Source of the DNA: Anaerolineaceae bacterium
GTDB lineage: Bacteria; Chloroflexota; Anaerolineae; Anaerolineales; Villigracilaceae
Assembly: GCA_009772985.1 (NCBI GenBank)
Contig: WOUS01000001.1
Location: 1-64,000 of the forward strand
Direction: 5' to 3'
DNA length: 64,000 nt
The position numbers were made by a program, and so were the translations under genes. Shown in pieces: positions 16,270 to 31,285 of this stretch (positions are counted from its first letter, which is position 1; every line of letters starts with the position of its first letter). Below the pieces are notes generated by a model. That model was not told where the DNA came from, searched no databases, and worked only from the letters and a program-made list of their open reading frames with translations.

Positions 16270-16283
16270 GGTTGGATGAAAAC

Positions 16284-16370
16284 TATGGTCCCTCCGCCGG
16301 TATGATCCGGATCAGGTTCTGCGGGTCGAGCGTTTACGCTCCTCTCAGCCTGTCTTACAGGCTCCCCGTT
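16284..16370 (-). promoter_or_regulatory. TPP riboswitch (THI box)
   Basis: Read on the minus strand: GGGGAGCC, CTGAGAGGA, ACCCGCAGAACCTGATC, then CCGGATCATACCGGCGGAGG. These match the conserved pyrimidine-sensor helix (CUGAGA) and pyrophosphate-sensor helix (ACCUGAUC...GGAUCAUACCGGCGGAGGGA) of TPP riboswitches. High TPP should favour the terminator downstream and shut off the thiN-thiBPQ operon. Confidence 0.95.
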
Positions 16371-16384
16371 CAATTGTCGCCGCC

Positions 16385-16422: not shown

Positions 16423-17247
16423 TCAGCGCACGCGGCGCTTCCACTCTTCCTTCAAGCGCAATTCTTCCGGGTCGGCGCCCGATTCGAGCGCCAGGAAGTC
16501 GGCCATCAGGCGGTTGAACGGCTGGCTTTCGTCGAGCATCGGGAAGTGGCCGGACTGTTCGAGGGGCACCAGGTGCATCCGTTCCGGCTTGGTCTCGATC
16601 CATTGCTCGGACGGGGCGCTGACAGCCGGGTCGTTCATCCCATGCACCATCAGGCAGGGGATCTGGAGCTGGCTCATAATGGCGGTGAAATCGAAATTGG
16701 TCAAACCGTTCATGGAAACGGTGATCGCCTGCGGGTCGGTCTTGGGAGTGTCGGTGCGGACGGCTTCGGCGAGCGGGTCGCGGCCGGCCAGCCAGTCGGC
16801 CAGGTCGGCGGGCGAGGCGGGGGAGCGCAGGCGGGCAGCGACATCTGTGATGGCCAGCGGGACGCTGACGACCATCATGCGGTCCACCTGGGCGGGGAAC
16901 TTGCGGGCGAACAGGATGGAGGTCAACGCGCCGAGGCCGTGGGCAACGATGGCGATCTTGCCGGTGCGCGCGCCGGCGGCTTCATCCTTGATGATCAGGC
17001 CCATCTTGAGCAGGAAATTGTCGAGCATGACAGCCTGCTTGTCGAGGGCATAGTAAAGCGGGTCGTGAGCGGTATCGCCGAAGCCCCACAGGTCGAGCGC
17101 ATAGCAGCGGTAGGACACGGCCGCGGTCTGCATGGCCGGGACCCAGTACCGCCACGTTCCGACCCAGCCGTGCAGGAAGATGACCGGACGTCCGCGTCCG
17201 AGCACTTCGTAATGCACGATGCCTTCTTCGAGGATGACTGCGCTCAT
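16423..17247 (-). CDS. alpha/beta hydrolase fold protein lacking the nucleophile serine
   Basis: 274 aa with an alpha/beta hydrolase core: oxyanion-hole motif FLHGWVGTWRYW, LDLWGFGDT, and a late histidine in LEQSGHFPMLDES. The nucleophile elbow reads VAHGLGALTS where active enzymes have GHSMGG, so the serine is replaced by glycine. The paralogue at 29010-29807 in the same operon keeps GHSMGG and has a near-identical N-terminus (EGIVHYEVLGRGRP versus QGIVHYEVYGRGRP). A binding or regulatory role, not hydrolysis, is inferred. Last gene of the ten-gene unit, starting 11 nt after the preceding stop. Confidence 0.82.
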   Translation of the reverse strand: MSAVILEEGIVHYEVLGRGRPVIFLHGWVGTWRYWVPAMQTAAVSYRCYALDLWGFGDTAHDPLYYALDKQAVMLDNFLLKMGLIIKDEAAGARTGKIAIVAHGLGALTSILFARKFPAQVDRMMVVSVPLAITDVAARLRSPASPADLADWLAGRDPLAEAVRTDTPKTDPQAITVSMNGLTNFDFTAIMSQLQIPCLMVHGMNDPAVSAPSEQWIETKPERMHLVPLEQSGHFPMLDESQPFNRLMADFLALESGADPEELRLKEEWKRRVR

Positions 17248-17258
17248 ACCGTTCCGGT

Positions 17259-17633
17259 TTAATGTCTGTGCTGCGTCAAAATCGCCTGGATGCGGGTGGT
17301 CAACTGGTCGGGAGCAAAAGGTTTCAAAAGGTATTCGACCGCGCCGGCGCTCAGGCCGGCCTGGATTTCATTATCCTGTCCTTTCGCCGAGAGGAACATA
17401 ATTGGAATGTCCTTCGTTTTCTTGTTTTCTTTTATTTTGGCGCAGGCTTCGTAGCCGGTCATGCGCGGCATGCGCACGTCGAGCAGGATCAGGTCGGGGA
17501 TTTCCTGCAAGGCCAGGGTCACGGCTTCCTCGCCATTACTGGCCGCGACTACTTCGTACCCGGCAAAACGGAGGGTGAAGGTGATTAGATCCCGGATGTC
17601 GCGTTCGTCTTCTGCAATCAGTATTTTCGCCAT
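17259..17633 (-). CDS. single-domain response regulator (CheY-like)
   Basis: 124 aa, only a receiver domain. The acidic pocket is ILIAEDERD, the phosphoacceptor Asp lies in LILLDVRMP, and the conserved lysine in LLKPFAPD. No output domain, so it works by protein contact or as a phosphate relay. It starts 3 nt after the giant kinase stop, which makes it the obvious phosphotransfer partner of that kinase. The downstream neighbour is the serine-less hydrolase homologue. Confidence 0.93.
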   Translation of the reverse strand: MAKILIAEDERDIRDLITFTLRFAGYEVVAASNGEEAVTLALQEIPDLILLDVRMPRMTGYEACAKIKENKKTKDIPIMFLSAKGQDNEIQAGLSAGAVEYLLKPFAPDQLTTRIQAILTQHRH

Positions 17634-17636
17634 AAA

Positions 17637-20600
17637 TCACTCCTCAACCTCATAGTTGGGCAGGGTGAACGAGAACGTGCTTCCCTCGCCCGGCATACCC
17701 ATGCTTTCCATCCATATCTTGCCCTTGTGCATGTTGACCAACTGGCGGACGATGGCCAGCCCCAGACCGGTTCCCGGGGTCGCCAGCACGAGCGGATCCT
17801 CGCCCCGGTAGAACCGCTCGAAGATGCGGTCCTGGTCGGCCAGCGGGATGCCGATGCCGGTATCCTTCACGTCCACCTGCACGGCGCTGTCCACGGGCTG
17901 GATGTGGATGGTGATCTGCCCGTTGGCCGGGGTGTAGTGATAGGCATTGTCCACCAGGTTGGTCAGCACCTGGCGGACGCGTTCCAGGTCGCCGTTCACG
18001 CGCGGCAGATCGGGCGGGGCGTCGAGGGTCAGGCCGATCGGCTTGTTCTCTTCCTGCGAACGGCGCAGCAGGTCGGTGATCACGTCGTCGGCGATCTCGC
18101 GCAGATCGAGCGCCTGCAGGGAGAGCGAGACGCGCCCGGCCTCGATGCGGGAAATGTCGAGCAGGTCGTTCACCAGGATGCTCAACCGATCGGTGTTGGC
18201 GCGGACGATGTCCAGGAAGTGGTTCTGGTTCTCGTTCAGCGCGCCGGCTGCGCCCATCAGCAGGATATCCACGTAGCCTTTGATGGAAGTCATCGGCGTG
18301 CGCAATTCGTGGCTGACCGTGGCCACGAATTCAGACTTGAGCCGGTCCACTTCGACCTCATGCGTGATGTCGCGGAAGATGGAGACCGTGCCCAGGAACT
18401 CGTCCTTCCAGATGACCGGCGACAGGTGGACCAGCACCACCTTGCCGGTTTCGAGGGTAAGTTGTTCGGCGTAGGTGTCGCCGGGCTGGTGGCTGGCCGG
18501 GTTGTTCGACCAGGAGCGGATGGTCAGCATCCAGGTCTGAGCCGCCTTGCCGAACAGGCCGACGAAACTGTCCAGCGTCTGGCCGAGGACCTGTCCCGAT
18601 TTCAGGCCGAGGATGCGTTCGGCCGACAGGTTCAGGAAGTTGATCACGTTGCCGGAATCGGTGACCAGCACGCCGTCGGCCACGGCTTCGAGGATGGCCT
18701 GCTGGCGGCTGGCCTCCACCTGCTGGCTGCGCAGCATCGAACCGAGACGTTCGGCCTGGTCGCGGATCAACTCGTACAACTGGGCGTTGTTGATGGCCAC
18801 GGCCACCTGGCTGCCGATGGCCTGCACCAGGTTCATCTGTTCCGGCGTGAAGTAGTCGGTCTGGCGGTGGAAGACCATGATGGCGCCGATGACTTCCTCG
18901 CCGACCATCAGCGGGGCGGCCACCACGCTGCGATGCAGGGGCGAACTGAGCGGCAGTTTGACCCAGCGCTTGTCCTTGCGGACGTCCGGGATGCGCACCG
19001 CCTGGCGGTTCTTGATCACCCAGCCGGCCAGTCCTTCGCCGACCTTGAGCGGGGTGGGTTTCGTGCTCTCCGTCATGACCGGGGTGACGTAGCCGTAGCC
19101 GGCGCGGTAGTGGATCGTGCCGTCCTGCTGGTTCAGCATGAGGATGCTGCCCTGCTCGGCGCCGATGGCGTCGTTCAGCAGCGCCAGGGTGCGGTTGAGG
19201 GCGCGGTCGAGGTCGAGGCTGGCCGAGACCTCGGTCAGGATGCGCAGGAGAGTTTCGGTGCTGCGCTGTTCCCGCTGGAGTTCGGCGGTGCGCTCGACCA
19301 CGCGCTGTTCCAGTTCCTCGTTCAGGCGGCTGGTCTCGGCGAAGAGCCGTCCGTTCTGGATGGCGACCGCGGCCTGGTTCGCCAGGGTGCCGAGGATCTG
19401 CTGCTCTTCCGTGCCGTACATGTTCGGCTGGTAACTCTGCGCCGAGAGCATGCCGATGATCTTGCCAGCCATGGTGATGGGAACGGCCACGATGGAGCGC
19501 GGCTGGCCCTCGCCAAACGTCTGCCCGCCGAGGGCCTCCACCTGCTCCATATCGGAGATGAGCAGCGGCTCGCCGCTGGCAATGACGCGTCCGCTCAGCC
19601 CCTCGCCGAGCGGGATGTGGACGTTCGGGGAGCGCCCGCCCGGGTCCATTAGGTAAGCGCCTTCGATGTCGCCCTGCTGTTCGTCGAGCAGGGCGATGAC
19701 GAACGATTCGGCCGGCATCAACTGGCTGGCGGCGCGGTGGATGGCGGCGTAGATCTCCTCCGGGTCGAGGCTGAGGCCGATCTCGTAGGAGGCGCGGTTG
19801 ATGATGGTCAGTTGCTCAGCGCGCGAGACCGTGGCCTGGTAGAGGCGGGCATTTTCGAGGGCAATGGCCGCCTGGTTGGCGATGGTGCGCGCCAGTTCGA
19901 TCTCGGTGGCGGAGAAGCGGACTTCCTCCGCCGTGTGGACGAACATCAGGGCGCGCAGGTTGGCGCCGCCCACGAGCGGCAGGACCAGCAGGGAGGCCGT
20001 CCCCTCGAGAAAACCGGCGAGCGGCTGGAGGTCCGGTTCGGTGGCGACGTTGGCGGCGCTGAAGACACCCAGCGACTCGCGCAGCCGGTCGAAGAGCGGG
20101 ACGGCGGGCATCGGCCGGGGCTGGGTCTCGCCGCCGGCGGCGGGGACGGTCATCCGCTCCACGGCCGCGCCGAACCGGTCGAAGGTCACGACCGAGACGC
20201 GCGCCGCTACCAGGGCCGAGCGCAATTCCTCGGCGGTCAGGTGCAGGATCTGCTCTTCGTTCAGCGAACCGCTCAGGCTGGCAGAAAGACGGTTGAGCAG
20301 CGCCAGCCTTTGCGAACGCTGGTCGAGTTCGGCGGCGCGGCGGACGCTCTCTTCGTACAAGCGGGCGTTGTCGAGCGAGACGGCGGACTGGCTGGCGAAG
20401 GTGGTGATGAGCTGCGAGTGCTCGACGGTGTAGAAGTGCGCCTCGGCTTTTTCGAGGGCGATTACGCCGGTCACTTCGCCCTTGGAGACGAGCGGGATGC
20501 CCATCCAGGCCAGGCGGTCAGGCTCCACCAGCGCGGGGAAGCGCGGGTCGGTGCGCACGTCGCCGACGATGATGGCCTGCATGGAGCCGATCATTTCCTT

Positions 20601-23600
20601 GAGCAGCGCCGAGTCTTCCACGGCCACCGTCAGGCCGATGCGCTCCTCGTCGTCGCCAAAGCCGCGCGCCGCCGCCGCCGAGAGGCGGTCTTCCTGGCGC
20701 AGCCACAGAATAGCGGTGTCATATGGCAGGATGGAGCGCAGCTGGTCGAGCAGGCCGGCGATCAACTGTCCCGATTGCAGGCTGGCGGTCATGGTGGTGG
20801 CGACGTTGGTGATGGCCTGCAACTGGGAGGCGCGTTCCTGCGAGGCCTGCACCAGGCGGACGTTCTCGAGGGCCAGCGCCACCTGCTGGGTCAGCGAAAG
20901 CAGGAGCGCCTCGTCTTCGGCAGAGAAGGCCGCGGCGGTGTTGAAGTTGTCCAGCACCAGCACGCCCAGCGCCTGTTCGGCGGTCTGGATGGGGATGAGC
21001 AGGCTGGAGACGGGCAGGCGCCCGGCGGTGGCTTCGCGGTAGCGGAGCAGATGCTCGGCGGGCAGGTTGTAGTCGCGGGCGAAGTTGACCTCGTCCACGC
21101 GGCGGGGCTGGCGGGACTCGAAGACCCGTCCGGGCAGGGCCTCGCCGGGGCGGTAGAGGATATCCTTCAGGCTTTCGACATTGGCATAATTGGCCGCCAC
21201 TTTCAGGACCAGGGCGGCCTGCTGCTCGTCCCAGGCCAGCACCGCGCCGGCGTGGGCGGCGGTCACCACGCGCAGGGCGCTGTCGAGCAGGGCTTTGATG
21301 ACGTTATCCGGGTCGAGACCGCTCAACTGGCGGCTGAAGTCGAGCAGCAGGTTGACCTCACGCAGGCGCCGGCGGGTCTCGGTGAGCAGGCTGATGTTCT
21401 GGAGGATGATGGAGACCTGGCGGGAGATCTGGAAGTAAACCTGCCGGTCTTCGTCGGTCAACGCCGGCATCGGCTCAGGGCTGAGCGCCAGGACGCCGGC
21501 CACCGGTTTGCCCTCCACCAGGATGGGGAGGCAAATGAAGCCCTTGGCGTGCAGGCTGGCAAGCAGCGGCGTGTCGCGCCAGGCGTCGTCCTGTTCGAGG
21601 TTCATCACCAGCAGCGTCTCGCCGGTCTGCAGGCTGGCGCGGAGCGGGTTGCGCTGGCCGAAGAGGGCCTCGGGACTGGTACCGCGCGGCACGTTCCCCA
21701 GCACGTGCAGCAGGTGCGGACCTTCGGGCGTGTTCTCGGCCACGATGGAAACGCTCATCTCCAGGCGGGTGAGCATCTCGCGGCCGAGCGCCAGCAGCGC
21801 CGACGGGCTGTCCACCTGGCGGTTGATGATCTCGGTCAGTTCGAGGCCGGCGCGGATGCGGCGGGCGCGGCGCTCGAGGTTGCGGATGGCGATCATCTGC
21901 TCCAGGTCCTTGTGGAGCAGGACGGGCAGGTGGCTCTGGCTGACCGACAGCAGTTGTTCCTGCCGTTCCAGGCTGGTCTTGAGCGTCTCCGACTGGCTGC
22001 GGAAGGCGGTCAGGAGGCGGCTGGACTGGATGACGAGCGCCGCCTGGGCGGCAAACACTTCCACCGTTTCCAGCGCGACCCGGTCCGGGCGCAGGCCGTC
22101 GCGCGGCGCGTCCAGGCTGATGAGGCCGACAGGATTCCCCTCGGAGTCGTGCAGCGGGTAGAGCAGCGTGTCCTCCGGATGCCAGGCATCCGGCGCCTGG
22201 CTGGAGGTATCTGGCAGCAGGGTGACCAGTTCGACTTCCGAGGAAACCACCGGCGTCTTGTCGAACGGAATGAAATACCCCTGGCCGACCTTGAACTCGT
22301 CGCGCAGCAACTGGCCGAGACCCGACCAGGGCTGCTGGCGAGCTTTGAGCATGTTGAGCGTTTCGATGGGCATGCCCACGCCCGCCACCCGGCGCTGGAT
22401 CTGGGTCTCGGATTCCACGATGCTGACCAGCACCACCTGGAAAGGTGTGGCTTCCTGGATTCCGTACGCCAGCGTCTCGAGCGACTCCTCCAGCGGTTTT
22501 TCGATCCCCAGCACGCTGGAAGTCTCGAACAGTTTGGTCATGGCGTCTGAGCGGCGGCGCAGCAGTTCGTTGCGCTGGGTCTGCTCGCGGTAGCGTTGGT
22601 AGTTGCCGAGCGCGATGGCCGCCTGCACCGCCAGGGACTGCGTGATCTCGATGGCAGTCCCGTCGAAACAGCCGGGTTCGGCGGCGTGCAAGTGGATCAA
22701 CCCCGAGGTTTTTTCCTGGTAGGAGATCGGCGCCACCAGTTCGGAAAGCACTCCCTCGTGGGCGGGCTGGTACCCTTGCGGGTCGGGATGGTTTACTATC
22801 CGCGGTTTGCCATCCTGCAAGACCGCCTGCTCGACCGGGGAAAGGCCGCCGGTGGGCGCGTCGCCGGTGAAAGCGATGATCGCCGGCTCGCCTTCGGGCT
22901 GCGTCTCGAAGAACAGGATCGCGCCGCAGGAGGCGCGCGTCGTCTGCAGGGCCTCGTTGTGAACCACCTGGAGCAGGCGGTTCAGGTCGAGGGTGCTGCT
23001 CAATTCCCGGCTGATGCGGGTCAGGGAGGAGAGGTGCTCGATGCGGCGGCGCAGGGTCTCGTCAGTCTGGCCGCTGAGCAGGCTGCTCTCCACCGCCGAG
23101 GCCAGCTGCCCGGCGGCGGTGGCCATTACCTGCAAGTCATAACTGTCAAAGAAGTCCTTTTTCCGGCTGCCGATCATCATCTCGCCGAGGCCGCGCTCAT
23201 GCACCACCAGCGGCACCAGGATGGATGATTCCATCCTGAGCGTCTCAACCATGGGGCGGTACACCGGCAGGATACGTTGATCCTCCGAGAGGTGGGTCGA
23301 GAGGAACGAACGGCGGCTCCCGGTGACTGTGGATGGGAACTGGGCGTTGTCCACGAACAGGCGGGAGAGCGGAGCGGTCTCTTCGGCAGAGACCCCCCAG
23401 AGCGAGGCAGTGTGCAGGCTGAGCGCGCCCTGCACCTCGTCGAGCAGGAAGACGGCGGCCGCGTCGGCCTGCATCAGGCGTCCCAGTTCCTGGAGGGCGT
23501 AACGAAGGATCTCGTCCAGCGTGGCGGAGGAACCCGCCAGGCTGGAGATCCGCCGCAGGGACTCCGAGCGCTGGGCGCGCCGGCGGCTCTCGCGGACAAG

Positions 23601-25076
23601 CGTGAAATTGTCAATGATCGGGGCAGACTGGTTGGCGATAATGCTCAACAGGCGCAGCTCGTCGGGGGTGAAGCCTGCCCCGGCCTGGCGGTGGTTGCAG
23701 GCCTGCAAATACCCCAGCGGGCGTCCCGCCGAGACGAGCGGCATAAGCACACCGTCACGCAGGCTGGCCGCCTGGGCATAATCGTGGAAGCCAAGCACAC
23801 CCCAGGATTCATCCTCGGCGGCATCTTCGGTGATGAGCGGCTCCTGCCGCAGGAACATCTCCTCCGCCGGGCTGCCCGGTGGGAGCGCCAGCGTGTACAA
23901 CTCCACGAACTGGGAGGGCAGGCCGATGAACGGGACCTGCGCTTCCAAGGAATGACGGTTTTCGTTGAAGAGGAAGAAACCGATGATGCCGACATCAAAC
24001 AACGGGGCAACGGCCTGGATGAGCCGGGCAAACAGTTCCTGCGGTTCGTTCGTCAGGCCGATGGCCTGGGTCAGTTTCGCCAGGCCGCTCAGTTCCGCCG
24101 TCTGCCGCTGCTGCGCTTCGAGCATGAACGCGTTGCGCAGGGCCACAGCCGCCTGCCCGGCCAGCAGCTGCAAAATGTCGAGATCCTCCGGCGCAAAGGC
24201 ATCCGCCGTCTTCAGGCCGACCTCCAGCGTGCCGACCAGGTCCTCGCCCGCCAAGAGCGGGACGCCCATGTACGAGCGCATCGGCGTCGTTTCGCCTCCG
24301 GCGGAGGCCGGCAGGCCGGTATAGGTCTGGGTATCGGGGATCAGCAGGGGGCGGCGTTGCTCGATGATGGCTTTGGCATATCCCGCCGGGGGACGCGGCA
24401 TCCCCTTCTCGACGCGGCGCTCGGACCCGGGTCCGGCGCCGAAGCGGAAGGAGGTCAGCAGTTCCTCCACCGCGTTCCACATCTGGATCTCCAGCATGTC
24501 CGCCGGCAGGATGCGTTCCACGTTCTCCAGGATGGCCTGCGCGGCCGCCCTGACCCCCTGGTTGACCGAAACCGTCTGGCTGAAATCGGTCAAGATGCGG
24601 AGCGCCGGGCCGGCCACATCCCCCCGCCCCTCCGCCGCCAGCCCAGCCGGCAACTCGGGGCGCTGCAGCGATACCAGCAGGCCGGGGAAAGCGCCCGGGA
24701 TCTGGTACGAAACTCCCTCCAGCGGGCGGCCGTTCAAGGAAAAGCGCGCCTGCCCCTCGGCGGCGCACAGTTTCAGGAAATCTTCGCCGGGACGGATGCG
24801 GCGCGCCAGCAGTTCGATGTTCGGCTGTTCCCCTTCGCGCAGTTCGAACCAATCGCGCACGGTGGCGTTGGCGTAATCAATCCGCCCGCCGGATTGTACG
24901 ACCAGCACGGCATGGTGGTGGGTCGAAAGGCCGGCGGCCTGCGGGGGATTCGAGACAGGGATGGACGCCGGCCGCTGGCGTGGGACGATAAAGCGCAGCA
25001 CAATCCAGGCCAGCGCGCCGAAAACGACCGCGACCAGGACCAAAACGAGACCGATAGACACCAATTGCGCTGGCAT
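17637..25076 (-). CDS. giant sensor histidine kinase with eleven tandem GAF domains
   Basis: 2479 aa. One N-terminal transmembrane segment (about 8-30) and a PAS-like segment (about 45-135) are followed by eleven GAF domains across roughly 160-2100. Each GAF ends in a recognisable helix, for example GQAAVALRNAFML, NQAAIALENARLY, NQAAVAIQNGRLF. A PAS domain follows (about 2120-2235, VADGVLVTDSGNVINFLN). HisKA comes next, with the phosphoacceptor in ATVSHELRTPMTS (His about 2255), then HATPase (about 2360-2475) with DTGIGIP and GTGLGLAIVRQLV. The kinase half is therefore complete. GAF domains bind small ligands or chromophores; what eleven of them sense is unknown. It is preceded by one response regulator and followed by another. 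Confidence 0.93.
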   Translation of the reverse strand: MPAQLVSIGLVLVLVAVVFGALAWIVLRFIVPRQRPASIPVSNPPQAAGLSTHHHAVLVVQSGGRIDYANATVRDWFELREGEQPNIELLARRIRPGEDFLKLCAAEGQARFSLNGRPLEGVSYQIPGAFPGLLVSLQRPELPAGLAAEGRGDVAGPALRILTDFSQTVSVNQGVRAAAQAILENVERILPADMLEIQMWNAVEELLTSFRFGAGPGSERRVEKGMPRPPAGYAKAIIEQRRPLLIPDTQTYTGLPASAGGETTPMRSYMGVPLLAGEDLVGTLEVGLKTADAFAPEDLDILQLLAGQAAVALRNAFMLEAQQRQTAELSGLAKLTQAIGLTNEPQELFARLIQAVAPLFDVGIIGFFLFNENRHSLEAQVPFIGLPSQFVELYTLALPPGSPAEEMFLRQEPLITEDAAEDESWGVLGFHDYAQAASLRDGVLMPLVSAGRPLGYLQACNHRQAGAGFTPDELRLLSIIANQSAPIIDNFTLVRESRRRAQRSESLRRISSLAGSSATLDEILRYALQELGRLMQADAAAVFLLDEVQGALSLHTASLWGVSAEETAPLSRLFVDNAQFPSTVTGSRRSFLSTHLSEDQRILPVYRPMVETLRMESSILVPLVVHERGLGEMMIGSRKKDFFDSYDLQVMATAAGQLASAVESSLLSGQTDETLRRRIEHLSSLTRISRELSSTLDLNRLLQVVHNEALQTTRASCGAILFFETQPEGEPAIIAFTGDAPTGGLSPVEQAVLQDGKPRIVNHPDPQGYQPAHEGVLSELVAPISYQEKTSGLIHLHAAEPGCFDGTAIEITQSLAVQAAIALGNYQRYREQTQRNELLRRRSDAMTKLFETSSVLGIEKPLEESLETLAYGIQEATPFQVVLVSIVESETQIQRRVAGVGMPIETLNMLKARQQPWSGLGQLLRDEFKVGQGYFIPFDKTPVVSSEVELVTLLPDTSSQAPDAWHPEDTLLYPLHDSEGNPVGLISLDAPRDGLRPDRVALETVEVFAAQAALVIQSSRLLTAFRSQSETLKTSLERQEQLLSVSQSHLPVLLHKDLEQMIAIRNLERRARRIRAGLELTEIINRQVDSPSALLALGREMLTRLEMSVSIVAENTPEGPHLLHVLGNVPRGTSPEALFGQRNPLRASLQTGETLLVMNLEQDDAWRDTPLLASLHAKGFICLPILVEGKPVAGVLALSPEPMPALTDEDRQVYFQISRQVSIILQNISLLTETRRRLREVNLLLDFSRQLSGLDPDNVIKALLDSALRVVTAAHAGAVLAWDEQQAALVLKVAANYANVESLKDILYRPGEALPGRVFESRQPRRVDEVNFARDYNLPAEHLLRYREATAGRLPVSSLLIPIQTAEQALGVLVLDNFNTAAAFSAEDEALLLSLTQQVALALENVRLVQASQERASQLQAITNVATTMTASLQSGQLIAGLLDQLRSILPYDTAILWLRQEDRLSAAAARGFGDDEERIGLTVAVEDSALLKEMIGSMQAIIVGDVRTDPRFPALVEPDRLAWMGIPLVSKGEVTGVIALEKAEAHFYTVEHSQLITTFASQSAVSLDNARLYEESVRRAAELDQRSQRLALLNRLSASLSGSLNEEQILHLTAEELRSALVAARVSVVTFDRFGAAVERMTVPAAGGETQPRPMPAVPLFDRLRESLGVFSAANVATEPDLQPLAGFLEGTASLLVLPLVGGANLRALMFVHTAEEVRFSATEIELARTIANQAAIALENARLYQATVSRAEQLTIINRASYEIGLSLDPEEIYAAIHRAASQLMPAESFVIALLDEQQGDIEGAYLMDPGGRSPNVHIPLGEGLSGRVIASGEPLLISDMEQVEALGGQTFGEGQPRSIVAVPITMAGKIIGMLSAQSYQPNMYGTEEQQILGTLANQAAVAIQNGRLFAETSRLNEELEQRVVERTAELQREQRSTETLLRILTEVSASLDLDRALNRTLALLNDAIGAEQGSILMLNQQDGTIHYRAGYGYVTPVMTESTKPTPLKVGEGLAGWVIKNRQAVRIPDVRKDKRWVKLPLSSPLHRSVVAAPLMVGEEVIGAIMVFHRQTDYFTPEQMNLVQAIGSQVAVAINNAQLYELIRDQAERLGSMLRSQQVEASRQQAILEAVADGVLVTDSGNVINFLNLSAERILGLKSGQVLGQTLDSFVGLFGKAAQTWMLTIRSWSNNPASHQPGDTYAEQLTLETGKVVLVHLSPVIWKDEFLGTVSIFRDITHEVEVDRLKSEFVATVSHELRTPMTSIKGYVDILLMGAAGALNENQNHFLDIVRANTDRLSILVNDLLDISRIEAGRVSLSLQALDLREIADDVITDLLRRSQEENKPIGLTLDAPPDLPRVNGDLERVRQVLTNLVDNAYHYTPANGQITIHIQPVDSAVQVDVKDTGIGIPLADQDRIFERFYRGEDPLVLATPGTGLGLAIVRQLVNMHKGKIWMESMGMPGEGSTFSFTLPNYEVEE

Positions 25077-25088
25077 GACCGGGAACGG

Positions 25089-25994
25089 TTATCCTTTGAG
25101 CGCGGCTCCCGGAGCATCCTGCCTGCGGACTTCGGCAGCCATTTCGGTGATCTCGCGGATGTCGGAGAACGACTGCTGCCTGGGAGAAACCACGCCGACA
25201 GAGAGGGCCATCAACGGGGCTTTCTCCTGGCCTTCCGGCCGCGGAACCATGATGTAGCCCTGCTGCCGGTCCATGAAATTGTAGTGGCTCAGGATCTCCT
25301 CGGCAAAGCGTTCCTTCAACCGCTGGCGGATCTTCTCCGCCGCGCCTTCCGTGGTGATGACGACGAAGTTGGCGCCCCCGGCGTGACCGATGAAATCGTT
25401 GGGTGTGCCGATCTCGTCCACCACTTCGGTCAACAGCATGGCCGCGAAGCGCAGCGCGTCATCCCCGGCGACAAATCCGTACACATCGTTGAACTTGTCG
25501 AAGAAGTTGACGCGGATGTCCATGTATGCCCAGCCTTCCTGCCGGATGAACTGGCGCAGCTGCTCCTCGATCAGCCGCCCCGCGGGGAGACCGGAACGCG
25601 GGTCGGTGAGGGCTTCGCGCTCCGCCCGGCGGATGGCGCCCATGACGCGCAGTTTCAACTCTTCGATATCGAACGGCTTGGTGATGTAATCGTCCGCGCC
25701 CAGTTCCAGGCCTTGCAGTTTGTCGCTGCGTTCGTCCTTCTGGGTCAGGAAAATCACCGGGATGTGGCTGGTGCGCGTACTGGTGCGCAGCGTGCGGCAG
25801 ACCTCGTACCCGTCGATATCCGGGAGCATGATGTCCAGCACGATCAGGTGAGGCAGCGCATGGCGCGTCTTTTCCAACGCGTCCGAGCCGCGCGCGGCCA
25901 CATCCACATCGTAGCCCAGCCCGCTGAAATAGATCTTCAGCATGTTGGAGATGTCGTTATCGTCTTCAACCACCAAAAGGCGTGATTTTCCCAT
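25089..25994 (-). CDS. response regulator with degenerate GGDEF domain
   Basis: 301 aa. The receiver domain is about 1-125 (LLVVEDDND, phosphoacceptor Asp in [13 protein letters not shown], Lys in ITKPFD). The second half (about 135-290) has the diguanylate cyclase fold outline (LTDPRSGLPAGRLIEEQL, VNFFDKFNDVYGFVAGDDAL), but the catalytic GGDEF loop reads GGANF, so c-di-GMP synthesis is unlikely. It could bind GTP or act through protein contact. It starts 12 nt after the reductase-like gene's stop and precedes the giant kinase, its probable partner. Confidence 0.88.
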   Translation of the reverse strand: MGKSRLLVVEDDNDISNMLKIYFSGLGYDVDVAARGSDALEKTRHALPHLIVLDIMLPDIDGYEVCRTLRTSTRTSHIPVIFLTQKDERSDKLQGLELGADDYITKPFDIEELKLRVMGAIRRAEREALTDPRSGLPAGRLIEEQLRQFIRQEGWAYMDIRVNFFDKFNDVYGFVAGDDALRFAAMLLTEVVDEIGTPNDFIGHAGGANFVVITTEGAAEKIRQRLKERFAEEILSHYNFMDRQQGYIMVPRPEGQEKAPLMALSVGVVSPRQQSFSDIREITEMAAEVRRQDAPGAALKG

Positions 25995-26006
25995 AGGGCC
26001 TCCCGA

Positions 26007-27095
26007 TCAATTGCGTCTCCGCGCCTGTTGGGCGCGCTTGCGTATGGATTCGATTTGTGCGGCAGTCACCTCGCGCTCGAACGAGCGGAAACCGCTCAGC
26101 CGGAAACCGTGCTTTTCGGCGATGGCGGTGATTTCTTCCACGCGCTGGCGGGTGATGTGTTTGCCCAAAGTATAATCCTCGAAGCGGCCTTCCAGCGCCA
26201 GGGCCATCGTCTCAGCCATGCAGGCATAGGCGCTGCCAGGTGGAAAGCCAAAGTTAAAATGGAAATCAACGGGGCCGGGAACTTCGACCATGCCGCCGTC
26301 AATCACTAATATATCATCTCTAACTGCCGCCACCATTGCAGATACGTCGCGGGGGCGGGCCACGTCGCAAATTACGCTGCCCGGCCGGAGATGTTCGGGC
26401 CGGATGACATCGTGGACCGCGCTGGTGACGGTCAGGATCAGCTGGACATCGGACAACGCGTCCATGCTGGCGCTGGTGCGGAGTTCGGCGCGTGCCCGGA
26501 CCCCGATCCTGCCGCGCAATTCCTCGAGCGGCTCCTCCCGGCGGGCTATGAGGACCAGTTCGGCCACCTCGTCCGCCAGCAGTTCGGCGCAGACCTGGCC
26601 GATGGAGCCGGTTGCCCCGACCACCGCGGCGGAGGCCTCCCCAAGCGGGATATCCATCAGCCGCGCCGCCTCCCGGATGGCCTGCACCGCCATGGCGACC
26701 GTATACGAATCGCCCGTGGTGACCGGGATGTCGAGCGCCCGGGCGATGGTCACGCCCGCGTCCCCGACCACCGAAGTGAACGCGCCCAGGCCGAGCATCT
26801 GCGCGCCGAGTCTCTCGGCCAGGCGTCCTGTCTGGATAATCTTACGATAAACTGTCCGTTCTGGCAACTCCAACATGCGGCGCGGCGTGTACGGACAGGC
26901 AACAAACCAGCCCCGAACTTCCTTGCCCGTCGCCCGGGAGGTGACGCCGTTGATCTCGGAAATGTAGACGGGCGGGAAAAATGTGGAGAAGAAGTCAATC
27001 TGCCGTTCGGTGAGATGGCGGCCTAAGAACGGGTACTTCCGGCTGACATCCCGCTTGGGATCAATCGGGTGGATGATGAATGCAAAGGTGTCCAC
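26007..27095 (-). CDS. acyl-ACP-reductase-like dehydrogenase
   Basis: 362 aa. It resembles cyanobacterial acyl-ACP reductase (AAR), which reduces fatty acyl-ACP to aldehyde. Shared features: an N-terminal domain ending WFVACPYTPRRML, the segment LGLGAFTSVVGDAGVTIA, a TTGDSYTVAMAVQAI block, and a Rossmann NADPH site AAVVGATGSIGQVCAELLAD followed by VLIARREEPLEEL. No aldehyde decarbonylase gene is nearby, so hydrocarbon formation is not implied. Start GTG 27095 lies 4 nt after the previous stop and gives the natural N-terminus DTFAFIIHPIDPKRD; the upstream open frame overlaps the preceding gene. Substrate is inferred. Confidence 0.72.
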   Translation of the reverse strand: MDTFAFIIHPIDPKRDVSRKYPFLGRHLTERQIDFFSTFFPPVYISEINGVTSRATGKEVRGWFVACPYTPRRMLELPERTVYRKIIQTGRLAERLGAQMLGLGAFTSVVGDAGVTIARALDIPVTTGDSYTVAMAVQAIREAARLMDIPLGEASAAVVGATGSIGQVCAELLADEVAELVLIARREEPLEELRGRIGVRARAELRTSASMDALSDVQLILTVTSAVHDVIRPEHLRPGSVICDVARPRDVSAMVAAVRDDILVIDGGMVEVPGPVDFHFNFGFPPGSAYACMAETMALALEGRFEDYTLGKHITRQRVEEITAIAEKHGFRLSGFRSFEREVTAAQIESIRKRAQQARRRN

Positions 27096-27099
27096 GCGG

Positions 27100-28377
27100 T
27101 TACCATTTGAGGTCCGCCTCGCCGCGCTGGCGGGGATACAGACGCGGGTGCTTGGAGGCGTCCCGCAGCCGGTGGTGGTCGCTGTCTTCGTAGGCCACGT
27201 CGTGGTCAATGATGCGCCGGTCTTTGGAGGCGAAAATCACCACGTCCGATTCGATCATGCGCGCCGGGAAGATGATGATGCCCGATCCGAGACGGCAGTT
27301 GTGCCCCACACAACAGCCCAGCACGGGCCGGTTGGCGTTGGTCAGTTTGTTGTGGCCGTCGCGGGCGCGGATGGGTGCCGGGATGAGGTTGTAATCTGTG
27401 AAGGTGTTGCCGGCGCCGATGAACGTGTTGCGCCCGATGACGCACATTTGCAGGCAGGTATTTTGCGCCACCATGCCGTGCTCCATGATGGTGGTCATAA
27501 AGAGCGAGGCGCGGAACGGCAGGAAGGTGCCGTCGCCGACCACCGAGAGCATCAACTGGCAGTCCTGCGAGATGTTGACGTTGCTGCCGATGATGCAGTT
27601 CTCGATGATCGAACCGGCGTTGATGGTCACGTTGTCGCCGATGGTGGTCGGGCCGTGGATGACGGCAGTCGGGTCAATGACGCAATTTTTGCCAATCTTG
27701 ACCAGTTCCGAGCATTCCAGCAACTGCCGGCCCTCGTAGACCGCCTTCGCCAGCACGCGCAGTTTGAAGGCCAGGTCCCGGCCCAGGCGGTCTTCGAAGC
27801 GCGCCCCGCGCGCGAACAGGCCAAAGACGCCGTCGGCGATGAAGACATGCACCCACGAGTCGATGGCGATCATTGCCCGCAGCGGCACCTGGTAGAGCAG
27901 GTCGCCGCTCTCGGTGGCCATGTAGGTCGGGACGTGGTAATAGCCGATCTCGCGGGCTTGCATATCAATGACCAGGTCCTCCACTGCCGTGGTGGGGCCG
28001 TTGGGGTAATACCACAGGTCGGCGTAATACAGCCTCCCGGCGGGAGTGTAGGATGTGGAGAGCGGCAGGGCATGTTCGCGGAATGCCGCGTCTTCCAGGG
28101 AAAAGGCGGCGCGCACCGCGCGGTTGCGTTTGCGCGCGGCGGTGATGAATGCTTCGATGTAATGCCGGTCGAAGTACAGGTTGTCGCGGTAGACGATCAT
28201 CGGTTCGCGCGAGACCGGCAGCGGCGCGCCGGGCGCGAGTTCCAGTTCGCCGGTCACGTAAGGGGCCAGCAGGTCGCGCTGGTTCAGCCAGAGCGGTTTG
28301 TTCTGGATGCGCAGGTCGCGCGCCGGTTCGTTGAACGGCGGGATGAGACGGGGGGCAGGCAGGATGATCTTAAGCAT
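27100..28377 (-). CDS. left-handed beta-helix (hexapeptide repeat) protein
   Basis: 425 aa. The N-terminal half (about 1-220) is of unknown type. Residues about 225-380 carry imperfect hexapeptide repeats (IGKNCVIDPTAVIHGP, IGDNVTINAGSIIENCIIG, IGRNTFIGAGNTFTD, VGHNCRLGSGIIIFP), the left-handed beta-helix of acyl- and nucleotidyl-transferases. Such proteins are usually trimers. There is no sugar-nucleotide motif, so an acyltransferase or scaffold role are both possible. The neighbouring acyl-ACP-reductase-like gene makes acyl chemistry plausible. 4 nt separate the two genes. Confidence 0.75.
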   Translation of the reverse strand: MLKIILPAPRLIPPFNEPARDLRIQNKPLWLNQRDLLAPYVTGELELAPGAPLPVSREPMIVYRDNLYFDRHYIEAFITAARKRNRAVRAAFSLEDAAFREHALPLSTSYTPAGRLYYADLWYYPNGPTTAVEDLVIDMQAREIGYYHVPTYMATESGDLLYQVPLRAMIAIDSWVHVFIADGVFGLFARGARFEDRLGRDLAFKLRVLAKAVYEGRQLLECSELVKIGKNCVIDPTAVIHGPTTIGDNVTINAGSIIENCIIGSNVNISQDCQLMLSVVGDGTFLPFRASLFMTTIMEHGMVAQNTCLQMCVIGRNTFIGAGNTFTDYNLIPAPIRARDGHNKLTNANRPVLGCCVGHNCRLGSGIIIFPARMIESDVVIFASKDRRIIDHDVAYEDSDHHRLRDASKHPRLYPRQRGEADLKW

Positions 28378-28383
28378 AGGCGG

Positions 28384-29013
28384 TCAGTTGATGGGCGTCT
28401 GTTCTATCACTATTGTACACGCAGAATCGCCGCACGCAATACAACTGGTCTCTTCCACCAGGAAATACTTCCCTCCGCTGATCCAGTACAGGGCTTCCTG
28501 CAGCAGGCCGACGGCAAGGTGGCAGCAGGGCGAATCCGTTTTCCGTTCCCAGCAGAGCGGACAGCGCGCGATGTGCCAGTGAATGAATTTCTCGTCCGTT
28601 TCGAGGCGGACACGCTGGTCGGTGCCGAGGTTGAACAGGCCGGCAAAAGCCTCACTCCCGACCTTCAACTTGGCCGGCAGGGGGAGCAGGCGGAACGCCA
28701 GGTCGGTCAGTCCCAGGCCGGGGCCGAACTCCCGCAGGCCGTACTTGAAGCAGGCGCGGCCCGTCTGCAGGGCCAGGCCGCGGCCGCCGCGCGGTCCGTA
28801 GGCGTCTTCGAGGGCGCCCTGCATCCGGCTGATGTGCTCAAAGGGGAGACTCAGATCCTGGTTATGAGGAGGGTAGTGACCGATGTAATCCGGCAGGGAG
28901 GCCAGGTTCAGGACCGCGTTCACCCCATTGCGGCCCAGCACTTCTTCCAGCGCCAAAAGGATGATCCGTCCCATGCGGTTCGGGTAGAAATAGGTCGGGG
29001 CGGGCGCTTTCAT
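28384..29013 (-). CDS. V4R domain protein
   Basis: 209 aa. The C-terminal ~110 residues match the V4R (4-vinyl reductase) domain: HWHIARCPLCWER, a conserved CCHLAVGLLQEAL block and the closing cysteine motif ETSCIACGDSACTIVI. V4R domains bind small hydrophobic ligands or metals and act as sensors (for example in XylR/DmpR-type regulators and BchJ). The N-terminal ~95 residues are helical. It overlaps the upstream hydrolase gene by 4 nt, so expression is coupled. Role in the operon: probable ligand sensor or carrier. Confidence 0.85.
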   Translation of the reverse strand: MKAPAPTYFYPNRMGRIILLALEEVLGRNGVNAVLNLASLPDYIGHYPPHNQDLSLPFEHISRMQGALEDAYGPRGGRGLALQTGRACFKYGLREFGPGLGLTDLAFRLLPLPAKLKVGSEAFAGLFNLGTDQRVRLETDEKFIHWHIARCPLCWERKTDSPCCHLAVGLLQEALYWISGGKYFLVEETSCIACGDSACTIVIEQTPIN

Positions 29014-29807
29014 CCGTTGTTCGTCTCTTCATCGAGGAATGTCTTGAGTTTCCGGGCGAACGGCTCCGGCTCGTCCAGCATGATGAAGTGACCGGCTTTC
29101 GGGAAGCGCTCGATGCGGGCAAGCGGGATGCCCTCCTTCATCGGCTGCCATTGCCTGGGATGGACGACGTTATCGCGGTCGCCGAACATGCCCATCGCGG
29201 GGGCTTTGACCTTCGAGAGGAAAGGCCGCAGGTCGGTGCGGCGCAGGGAGGCAATACTGAGCAGGAAGGATTCCACCGTTGTCCGGGAGAGGTCTTTATC
29301 CATCATTGCCGGGAAACGCGCATCCCGGCAAATGAAAGGCGAGGCGGCCCGCATCCCCAGCCGGAAGGCCCACATCATGTTGAACAGGATGACGGCGATC
29401 GGTTTGCGTCCGGCCATCTTCAACGGCCAGGCCAGCGAGGAGCCGACGATTGGGGAACCGACCACGACCACTTTGCTGACGCGCTGGGGATATTGAATGG
29501 CGACCGACAGGCTGACGGTCCCGCCCATGCTATGGCCCACCAGCGGGGCGCGCTCGATGCCGAGGCGGTCCATGAACTGGTCCACCAGGCCGACAAAATC
29601 CTGTATGGCGTAACTTTCGCGTTTCTTGCCTGATTCGCCAAACCCCCAGAAATCCAGCGCGTAGGTCCGGTAATAGCGGCCCAGGTAGGCCATGGTCTCC
29701 TGCCACAAGCCCCAGGAGCCCAGCCAGCCATGCAACAGAATGGCCGGGCGTCCGCGCCCATAGACCTCGTAATGCACGATTCCCTGGTCAGTTGTAATGG
29801 AGGACAC
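29010..29807 (-). CDS. alpha/beta hydrolase
   Basis: 265 aa. Complete catalytic features: HGWLGSWGLW near the oxyanion hole, LDFWGFGESGKK, nucleophile elbow VGHSMGGTVS (Ser about 102), an acid in FGDRDNVVHP and the histidine in FPKAGHFIMLDEP. Esterase, lipase or C-C hydrolase substrates cannot be told apart from sequence. Its N-terminus closely matches the serine-less homologue at 16423-17247, so the two are paralogues at opposite ends of one operon. Confidence 0.9.
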   Translation of the reverse strand: MSSITTDQGIVHYEVYGRGRPAILLHGWLGSWGLWQETMAYLGRYYRTYALDFWGFGESGKKRESYAIQDFVGLVDQFMDRLGIERAPLVGHSMGGTVSLSVAIQYPQRVSKVVVVGSPIVGSSLAWPLKMAGRKPIAVILFNMMWAFRLGMRAASPFICRDARFPAMMDKDLSRTTVESFLLSIASLRRTDLRPFLSKVKAPAMGMFGDRDNVVHPRQWQPMKEGIPLARIERFPKAGHFIMLDEPEPFARKLKTFLDEETNNG

Positions 29808-29828
29808 AGCGGCAGTTCTGTGGAGAGA

Positions 29829-30380
29829 CTATTTCTCTCCATTCTCCATTTCAGCGAGGATACTGTAGAGCAGTTCCAGCAGGACGGCCTTGACGGTATC
29901 CCGGTCGGTGGCGGTGCAGGGCAGGAATTTGACCTTCGGGTCGAGGCGCAGGGCATGGCGCATGTCGTCAATCTCCCAGGCATCCTTCCTGTCCTGCTTG
30001 TTGGCGGCGACCACGTAGGGGGTGGGGGCGTAGGCGCGGAACGTTTCGAGGATGGAGCGCGCTTCGCGGAAGGTTTCGGGGCGGGTGCTGTCCACAATGA
30101 CGATGAAGCCCAGCATCCCCTCCGACAGGATCTCCCACATGAAGTCAAAGCGCTTCTGCCCGGGAGTGCCAAACAGGTACAGGACCAGGTCCTCGTCCAC
30201 GGTGATGCGGCCAAAATCCATGGCGACCGTGGTGGCTTCCTTGACCGTCTTCTCCGCGCTCGTGGAAATCTTCCGCTCGGTGGAGACAACGTCAATTTCG
30301 CTGACGGACTTGATGAATTCCGTCTTGCCTGCATTGAAAGGACCGGTGACAACCATTTTAACCGTTTGCATGATGGCCAT
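29829..30380 (-). CDS. Ras-like GTPase of the conservon (CvnD) type
   Basis: 183 aa. G1 P-loop GPFNAGKTEFI, switch I with TTVAMDFGRI, G3 LFGTPGQKRFDFMW, G4 NKQD, weak G5 CTATD. The strings TTVAMDFG and YLFGTPGQ..F.FMW are characteristic of the GTPases found in actinobacterial conservons (CvnD) next to sensor kinases and roadblock proteins, and of related MglA-like proteins. Here the nearest neighbours are a DUF4388 protein (upstream, 11 nt gap) and a hydrolase (downstream). It is probably a cytoplasmic molecular switch read by the other operon products. Confidence 0.9.
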   Translation of the reverse strand: MAIMQTVKMVVTGPFNAGKTEFIKSVSEIDVVSTERKISTSAEKTVKEATTVAMDFGRITVDEDLVLYLFGTPGQKRFDFMWEILSEGMLGFIVIVDSTRPETFREARSILETFRAYAPTPYVVAANKQDRKDAWEIDDMRHALRLDPKVKFLPCTATDRDTVKAVLLELLYSILAEMENGEK

Positions 30381-30391
30381 CCTCGAAAAAA

Positions 30392-31210
30392 TTATAGCGA
30401 ACGAATCCGATTAATCAGCCGGTTAACCAGCGATTTTTGTTCTTCTTTATCTTCCGTCGGGAAGATACGCACTGAAGAAGTGGGAGGCGTGAAACCCTCC
30501 GGGCGGCAGATCTCCACCAGCCCGGCCTGGAGCAGCCCGTAGACGATGCGGCGGATCTCCAGTTCGTTCATTTTCGTGGCGCTGGAGATCTGGCGGATGG
30601 TGTTGCGCGGGTTGATGTAAGAGACGACCCGCCATTCCTCCACGCTTAAGTTGATGTTGCGCAGGTCCGCGCCGGGGCGGGCGGTGAATTTGAGCGCCAT
30701 GTCCAGGCTGGGGATCTCGTCCTGCAGCTGCTCCCACTCGCGCATCTGCCGCGAACCTTCGATGATCAGGTTCTCGAGGTCCAGGCGGATGTTGATGCGG
30801 TCGTCGGGGGGCAGCATTTCGTTCTCGAACCGGAAGACTCCCTCCACCCAGGTGAACAGGCGGTGGACCACGTCGGTGAAATACTGCTGGAGGTTGACCA
30901 GGATGTCTTCCTGCGAGACATACCCGGCGTTGATGAGCAGCAGGCCGAGTTCCTTGTCTGAGATCTGGCCGTCGCGCTGCTGGATGGCCTTGAACTGGCC
31001 GGTGTTGATCTTGCGGGATTTATACAGGATGGAGGCCAGCCCGCTGTCCTCCTGGCCGATGCGCGCGTAAGCCAGTTTGCCTTCACGGAAAGCAATCTGT
31101 GCATTTTCACCGGGACCTTCAACGACAAGCGTCCCGGTCTTGCGGGCCAGGTTGATGAGGTTCAGGATTTGGGTGATCGTAAAATCGCGCAGGTTGCCCC
31201 GGAGAGCCAT
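30392..31210 (-). CDS. DUF4388 (PATAN-like) protein
   Basis: 272 aa. The N-terminal domain MALRGNLRDFTITQILNLI through RKTGTLVVEG, IAFREGKLAYARIG and the following 100 residues are typical of DUF4388. This domain is common in delta-proteobacterial and Chloroflexi signalling proteins and is often paired with small GTPases. The C-terminal ~80 residues (VVSYINPRNTIRQISSATKMNELEIRRIVYGLLQAGLVEI) resemble a winged helix. ATG 31210 is chosen from the domain boundary and a nearby GAGG; open frame upstream overlaps the promoter. First gene of the ten-gene unit. Confidence 0.85.
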   Translation of the reverse strand: MALRGNLRDFTITQILNLINLARKTGTLVVEGPGENAQIAFREGKLAYARIGQEDSGLASILYKSRKINTGQFKAIQQRDGQISDKELGLLLINAGYVSQEDILVNLQQYFTDVVHRLFTWVEGVFRFENEMLPPDDRINIRLDLENLIIEGSRQMREWEQLQDEIPSLDMALKFTARPGADLRNINLSVEEWRVVSYINPRNTIRQISSATKMNELEIRRIVYGLLQAGLVEICRPEGFTPPTSSVRIFPTEDKEEQKSLVNRLINRIRSL

Positions 31211-31256
31211 GTCGGTCCTCGTACCTATTTCTTTCGGGGATGTAAAACGTAAAATG

Positions 31257-31285
31257 ATTATACATGGATGGACGCCATGCGTCAA
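31257..31285 (-). promoter_or_regulatory. consensus promoter of the ten-gene signalling operon
   Basis: TTGACG (31285-31280), a 17-nt spacer and perfect TATAAT (31262-31257), on the minus strand. Predicted start ~31250, giving a 40-nt leader to the DUF4388 ATG. No other comparable promoter was seen in the short gaps of the unit. Confidence 0.85.

Follow-up and report, generated by a model that had tools for sequence, protein, structure and literature searches.

Several described systems resemble in part the ten genes that lie on the minus strand of the window, by which we mean the whole analysed stretch of 64,000 nucleotides of Anaerolineaceae bacterium DNA (assembly GCA_009772985.1, contig WOUS01000001.1, positions 1 to 64,000). 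The actinobacterial conservon (CvnA-D) likewise encodes a histidine kinase, a MglA-family GTPase and small accessory proteins in one operon, and its CvnD GTPases (MglA group 2) carry an NxFD motif at G4 and a DAR motif at G5 (PMC4316618). With the MglA/MglB/RomR module of Myxococcus the unit shares a MglA-family GTPase and receiver proteins, and in some Chloroflexota relatives also roadblock genes beside the GTPase, but the GTPase has GTPGQ where that of Myxococcus has TVPGQ, and the partners differ. PATAN-MglA neighbourhoods (Makarova 2006; Wuichet and Sogaard-Andersen 2014) also place a DUF4388/PATAN gene beside a GTPGQ small GTPase, PATAN genes being known near MglA groups 1 and 5 (PMC4316618), whereas here such a pair belongs to a unit of ten genes in fixed order, along with a giant GAF kinase and apparent pseudoenzymes. 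Co-encoding of a V4R protein, a relative of Bet3, with a small GTPase is shared with TRAPP/Rab and with the Asgard GTPase-roadblock-TRAPPC3 sets, and a roadblock gene is added in one relative; in the window's genome, however, roadblock genes lie outside the operon, and the likeness is one of gene content alone. Finally, g6 is homologous over its full length to cyanobacterial acyl-ACP reductase (AAR) and the N-terminal domain of PigE and keeps their catalytic Cys, but it is accompanied by neither ADO nor a fused aminotransferase and is an optional member of a signalling operon.

The ten open reading frames run from 31210 down to 16423 (Table 1), with distances of 11, 21, -4, 6, 4, 12, 12, 3 and 11 nt between consecutive genes from g1 to g10. 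The original prediction of ten co-directional genes with gaps of at most 21 nt was thereby confirmed, and its domain assignments agreed with the domain searches once the starts of g1 (ATG at 31210) and g6 (GTG at 27095) had been corrected. The unit contains no gene for a transcription factor, transporter or effector that would name the output.

Table 1. Promoter, genes and 3' boundary of the unit, with positions in the window and the basis of each assignment.
Feature	Position	Strand	Basis or remark
Promoter TTGACG-17-TATAAT	31257..31285	-	conserved in relatives
g1, DUF4388 (PATAN) with C-terminal winged helix	30392..31210	-	Pfam, AlphaFold
g2, small Ras-like GTPase of MglA group 2-5 type	29829..30380	-	Ras/ATP_bind_1 match and motifs
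g3, alpha/beta hydrolase, GHSMG intact	29010..29807	-	domain match and motif
g4, V4R-domain protein, Cys-rich	28384..29013	-	Pfam match near the cut-off and family matches
g5, sugar-nucleotidyltransferase-like fold with left-handed beta-helix (hexapeptide)	27100..28377	-	domain match, Foldseek
g6, acyl-thioester reductase, AAR/PigE-N family	26007..27095	-	family match and catalytic Cys
g7, receiver domain with degenerate GGDEF	25089..25994	-	domain match and motif
g8, histidine kinase, 2479 aa	17637..25076	-	11 GAF, PAS, HisKA, HATPase
g9, stand-alone CheY-like receiver	17259..17633	-	domain match
g10, alpha/beta-hydrolase-fold protein without nucleophile Ser (GHGLG)	16423..17247	-	domain match and motif
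TPP riboswitch of the next (thiamine) operon, 3' boundary	16271..16378	-	own promoter 16413-16385

The arrangement had at first been read as a conservon-like system with a CvnD-type GTPase. The G3 motif of g2 (LFGTPGQ or FGTPGQ in 100 of 101 sequences) is that of MglA groups 2-5, while at G4 the window protein and almost all of the 101 sequences have the canonical NKQD, which fits the [NT]KxD of MglA groups 4 and 5 and not NxFD. Among the ten proteins, neither the roadblock model Robl_LC7 (PF03259, CvnB) nor DUF742 (CvnC) found a match, and the C-terminal LPxR of CvnA is absent from the kinase g8, which ends in FTLPNYEVEE. Membership among the conservons was rejected on these four features, i.e., the G4/G5 motifs of CvnD, roadblock, DUF742 and LPxR, and the conservon label falls with them, although a kinase together with a Ras-like GTPase makes the unit resemble a conservon or the MglA-RomR module somewhat in its working; in addition, the unit holds receiver, V4R, nucleotidyltransferase-like and hydrolase-like proteins that the conservon does not. 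The proposal that DUF4388 and V4R take the places of roadblock and DUF742 became unnecessary, as true roadblock genes stand within a deep relative's operon and beside a V4R paralogue in the window's genome, which has two roadblock genes outside the ten-gene unit.

On the other hand, the linkage of a small GTPase to a two-component system in one co-directional unit was borne out and proved to be very deeply conserved. The GTPase was found in 40 of 41 sampled relatives, with best matches at 75-90% identity, and tblastn recovered all ten genes in the same order in 10 of 20 loci sampled from the same order. Other sampled loci are without g4, g6 or both, or are truncated where their contig ends; one breaks within g5 (L015) and one has only g1-g2 (L031). 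In one scan of 80 named loci, gene order was constant except for a single g3/g4 swap, and the loci with conserved order and strand include those of Bellilinea, Levilinea and Ornatilinea. The GTPase-to-kinase order, whose loss in relatives had been named beforehand as fatal to the idea, is kept, the two genes lying in one gene run in 52 of the 56 named loci where this could be judged. The unit stops after g5 in Anaerolinea and Thermanaerothrix, and in one genome of that set (G252) the kinase, the receiver and g10 are found in inverted orientation a few kilobases off. The order of the unit is conserved across many families of Anaerolineales, far beyond chance. Its most conserved gene is the GTPase, with a median identity of 86% to the window protein against 54-77% for the others, the lowest medians being those of g4 (60%) and g10 (54%).

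The same conservation extends to the predicted TTGACG-17-TATAAT promoter. Its site is the only exact TTGAC-N18-TATAAT match in the window, where 0.09 matches are expected by chance with one mismatch allowed, and of 90 loci compared, a few of them the same contig counted twice, 80 have a site scoring 11/12 in the 260 nt before g1; shuffled upstream regions reached this score in 3 of 1800 trials. The distance to the start codon is usually 28-55 nt. The conserved footprint reaches into the spacer, giving the extended consensus TTGACGC-N8-CNTNCANG-TATAAT, which has exactly one perfect match per whole genome, at the g1 operon, both in the window's genome and in a relative (G017). At the other end, the thiamine operon begins 10 nt past g10 with a separate promoter followed by the TPP riboswitch. 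Adjacency to the upstream neighbours PhoU/PstB is not conserved in relatives. Downstream, the riboswitch heads an operon of thiamine diphosphokinase and an ABC transporter.

In regard to the single proteins, the GTPase keeps GPFxAGKT, GTPGQ and NKQD in about 100 sequences, and by its motifs we assign it to the MglA group 2-5 type. Its partner g1 matches DUF4388 at 96 bits; we take DUF4388 to be the Pfam name of the PATAN domain. The AlphaFold model of g1 is confident (pLDDT 85), and its winged helix (residues about 164-239) superimposes on a chain of a GATOR1/SEAC subunit with Z 10.5 and an rmsd of 2.2 over 72 residues. This chain is presumably NPRL2/Npr2, and proteins of that type, built from a longin domain and a winged helix, regulate Rag GTPases. 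The match is a lead, not a claim of homology, because it covers the winged helix alone, which is a common arrangement; the structure model and VIA-align, with which DUF4388 was considered as a roadblock substitute, likewise covered mainly the winged helix (164-240) and barely the N-terminal domain, whose kinship to longin/roadblock folds would be conjectural. As PATAN genes were already known near MglA groups 1 and 5, the DUF4388-GTPase pairing is not new. The ten-gene unit, which had been put forward as lacking a description, is apparently undescribed in the literature searched as well: the sole text match for DUF4388 lists the unit's first genes beside nitrite reductase in Anaerolinea, and the search found no paper joining Anaerolineae, V4R, GTPase and histidine kinase.

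Two of the enzyme-like proteins appear to be catalytically intact. The GHSMG of g3 is kept in 94 of 98 relatives, and the catalytic Cys of g6, which aligns with Cys294 of AAR and Cys296 of PigE, is invariant; members of this family produce aldehydes from acyl thioesters by means of that Cys (PMC8341465). With the acyl-ACP reductase model TIGR04058 g6 scores 119.6 bits, below the curated cut-off of 449.7. The g6 gene is missing from whole genera that keep the remaining unit (Bellilinea, Levilinea and Ornatilinea-type loci) and survives at L020, a locus from the window's own genus, as a remnant of 39 residues, and it is thus best taken, from these comparisons, as an optional part that has been repeatedly lost. 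Chloroflexia AAR homologues were rejected as orthologues of g6, being fusion proteins of about 690 aa at other loci (L138-L140, L142 and L143), with an AAR-like second half that keeps the Cys and a different first-half domain. Acyl-lipid metabolism, which had been proposed as the output, is a weak candidate, given that the reductase is absent from several genera and from the homologous Chloroflexia unit and that g10 has no nucleophile.

The V4R protein g4 is a prokaryotic relative of TRAPP Bet3 and, apart from g10, the fastest evolving member. Its V4R (PF02830) score of 30.2 bits falls just short of the cut-off (31), but the model recognises 14 of the 15 members of its family; among solved structures only a marginal match to MopR (E 0.07) was found. 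In g5, the fold matches ST0452 (E 5.7e-6) and also GMPPA/B, with a model of modest confidence (pLDDT 62), in which the beta-helix part is of low confidence because the alignment is shallow; by eye, the alignment shows no GxGTR signature loop at the N-terminus. The receiver protein g7 has GGANF in the window and GGDNF in most relatives in place of the GG(D/E)EF of diguanylate cyclases. The kinase g8 carries one predicted N-terminal transmembrane helix, 11 GAF domains, PAS, HisKA and HATPase, with the phospho-acceptor box SHELRTP in 84 of 85 sequences; its length across families varies from about 1640 to 2900 aa. In g10, GHGLG replaces the GHSxG of serine hydrolases, and the nucleophile position holds Gly in 32 of 34 sequences including those of Chloroflexia (one with GHGMG), with Ala and Asp once each, while a basic tail, KEEWKRRVR, is conserved. 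In g7 and g10 it is the loss of the catalytic motif itself that is conserved. Three conserved proteins, g5, g7 and g10, thus have the look of pseudoenzymes, whose roles may lie in binding or scaffolding.

Outside Anaerolineales, the parts of the unit are distributed differently. Across the phylum, g5 occurs in 53 of 301 genomes, which belong to the window's class and to a second group of families that we take to be Chloroflexia, with Chloroflexus aurantiacus, Roseiflexus and Herpetosiphon probably among them. In this group, the genes that stay together are V4R, as found in genomes resembling Roseiflexus, Herpetosiphon and Kallotenue, then g5, g7, the gene of a 1700-2900 aa kinase and, on contig stretches that extend far enough, a g10-like hydrolase; the DUF4388-GTPase pair lies away from this run, yet is still paired. 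The deep relative G050 has the order DUF4388, GTPase, two roadblock genes, V4R, g5, hydrolase and a third roadblock gene, and the window's genome holds a second locus with roadblock, V4R and receiver/degenerate GGDEF in succession (L132:7768-9678, about 221.8-223.7 kb of G000:C9). Because of the split in Chloroflexia, the order in G050 and this second locus, the unit is best seen as two modules, module A with the DUF4388/winged-helix protein and the GTPase, and module B with V4R, g5, receiver/GGDEF, GAF kinase and g10, which are separate in Chloroflexia and joined in Anaerolineae, where g3, g6 and g9 are added. Since the kinase gene lies apart from that of the GTPase in Chloroflexia, it may be only in Anaerolineae that the modules are directly linked.

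Several smaller observations touch on these loci. The roadblock-V4R-receiver/GGDEF locus is a partial paralogue of the ten-gene unit. In three families of Chloroflexia (L130:7867-10216, L131 and L137), a DUF1385 gene precedes the DUF4388-GTPase pair, with a mnmA-like gene close by, and in a Roseiflexus-like genome V4R, the leading gene of module B, is closely preceded by a match to the extended promoter with 3 mismatches (L116:7854-7882).

The reading that we prefer, with a probability of about 0.5, is that of a signalling hub, passed on vertically within Chloroflexota, that wires a two-component system and a MglA-like small GTPase together. According to this proposal, the membrane-anchored GAF kinase g8 would integrate small-molecule cues and phosphorylate both receiver proteins, g7 and g9, which would in turn act by way of the DUF4388 protein g1 to set the nucleotide state of the GTPase or its partners. 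The V4R protein g4 would report a hydrophobic (acyl) ligand, while the dead nucleotidyltransferase g5, the GGDEF protein g7 and the hydrolase homologue g10 would serve as ligand-binding scaffolds or sensors, not as enzymes. Binding of hydrophobic ligands is presumed for V4R domains (PMC2253512), and it is therefore plausible that an acyl ligand is made or removed by the active hydrolase g3 and the optional reductase g6 in lineages where these occur. The roadblock proteins whose genes lie elsewhere in this genome are, from a few loci, probably co-regulators of the GTPase. The GTPase, with g1 and possibly V4R and roadblock proteins, would be the switch that carries the output and could act on the cell envelope or on polarity.

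The same genes could be arranged around other outputs. Known autoinducer systems co-encode a synthase and a sensor, and the unit could accordingly be a quorum-type circuit in which reductase and hydrolase make an acyl-derived signal that the V4R and GAF proteins sense. The aldehyde-forming chemistry of the g6 family (PMC8341465), the conserved Cys and GHSMG motifs and the ligands presumed for V4R (PMC2253512) all point this way, but sensors stay in the Bellilinea, Levilinea and Ornatilinea-type loci and in the Chloroflexia unit where the reductase is absent, and the unit contains no exporter gene, so that we consider a lipid signal unlikely. A place for g5 at the centre is also conceivable, since it is a constant member of the unit in both Anaerolineae and Chloroflexia and its fold matches ST0452 and GMPPA/B: it could be an effector that senses a sugar nucleotide as GMPPA does, with the remaining proteins adjusting it and thereby envelope sugar-nucleotide/acyl metabolism. 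The low confidence of the g5 model, its missing nucleotidyltransferase signature and the lack of any glycosyltransferase or cell-wall gene in the unit make this rather improbable.

Control of polarity or surface motility, as by MglA-RomR-Frz or by PATAN-PilB of type IV pili, would agree with the combination of a MglA-type GTPase, receiver proteins and a PATAN-type protein, and Chloroflexus and Herpetosiphon glide. PATAN also occurs near MglA groups 1 and 5 (PMC4316618). However, the PilT family is present in 1 of 53 g5 carriers against 49 of 248 genomes without g5, and no PilT-family motor was found in the window's genome. Control of type IV pili was hence judged unlikely, with PilT not found in 52 of the 53 carriers, which leaves room for gliding without pili; overall, we regard a motility controller as doubtful. 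In composition, the set could further be the bacterial equivalent of eukaryotic regulators of the TRAPP/Rab and GATOR types, in which V4R, roadblock and PATAN-winged-helix proteins would jointly fix the state of a Ras-like GTPase, with a histidine kinase and a membrane acyl ligand in control and dedicated pseudoenzymes as sensors. V4R, roadblock and small-GTPase genes stand together in G050; to the scheme as a whole we give little credence; if true, coupling of V4R to GTPases would not be confined to eukaryotes and archaea but would also occur in Chloroflexota.

Returning to the signalling hub, a promoter and gene order frozen across an order, with a core recognisable in another class, point to an important process. 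The unit joins two-component kinases, small GTPases and V4R proteins, which are usually studied apart. As cultured strains carry the system (Levilinea, Bellilinea, Anaerolinea and probably Chloroflexus), V4R-GTPase coupling and the roles of the pseudoenzymes are open to experiment.

A separate observation concerns Levilinea saccharolytica. On its contig NZ_LGCM01000042.1 two copies of the whole operon (L095, 42437-63711; L096, 58062-79336) face opposite ways and share at least 17.3 kb at 100% identity, the result either of a recent inverted duplication or of faulty assembly.
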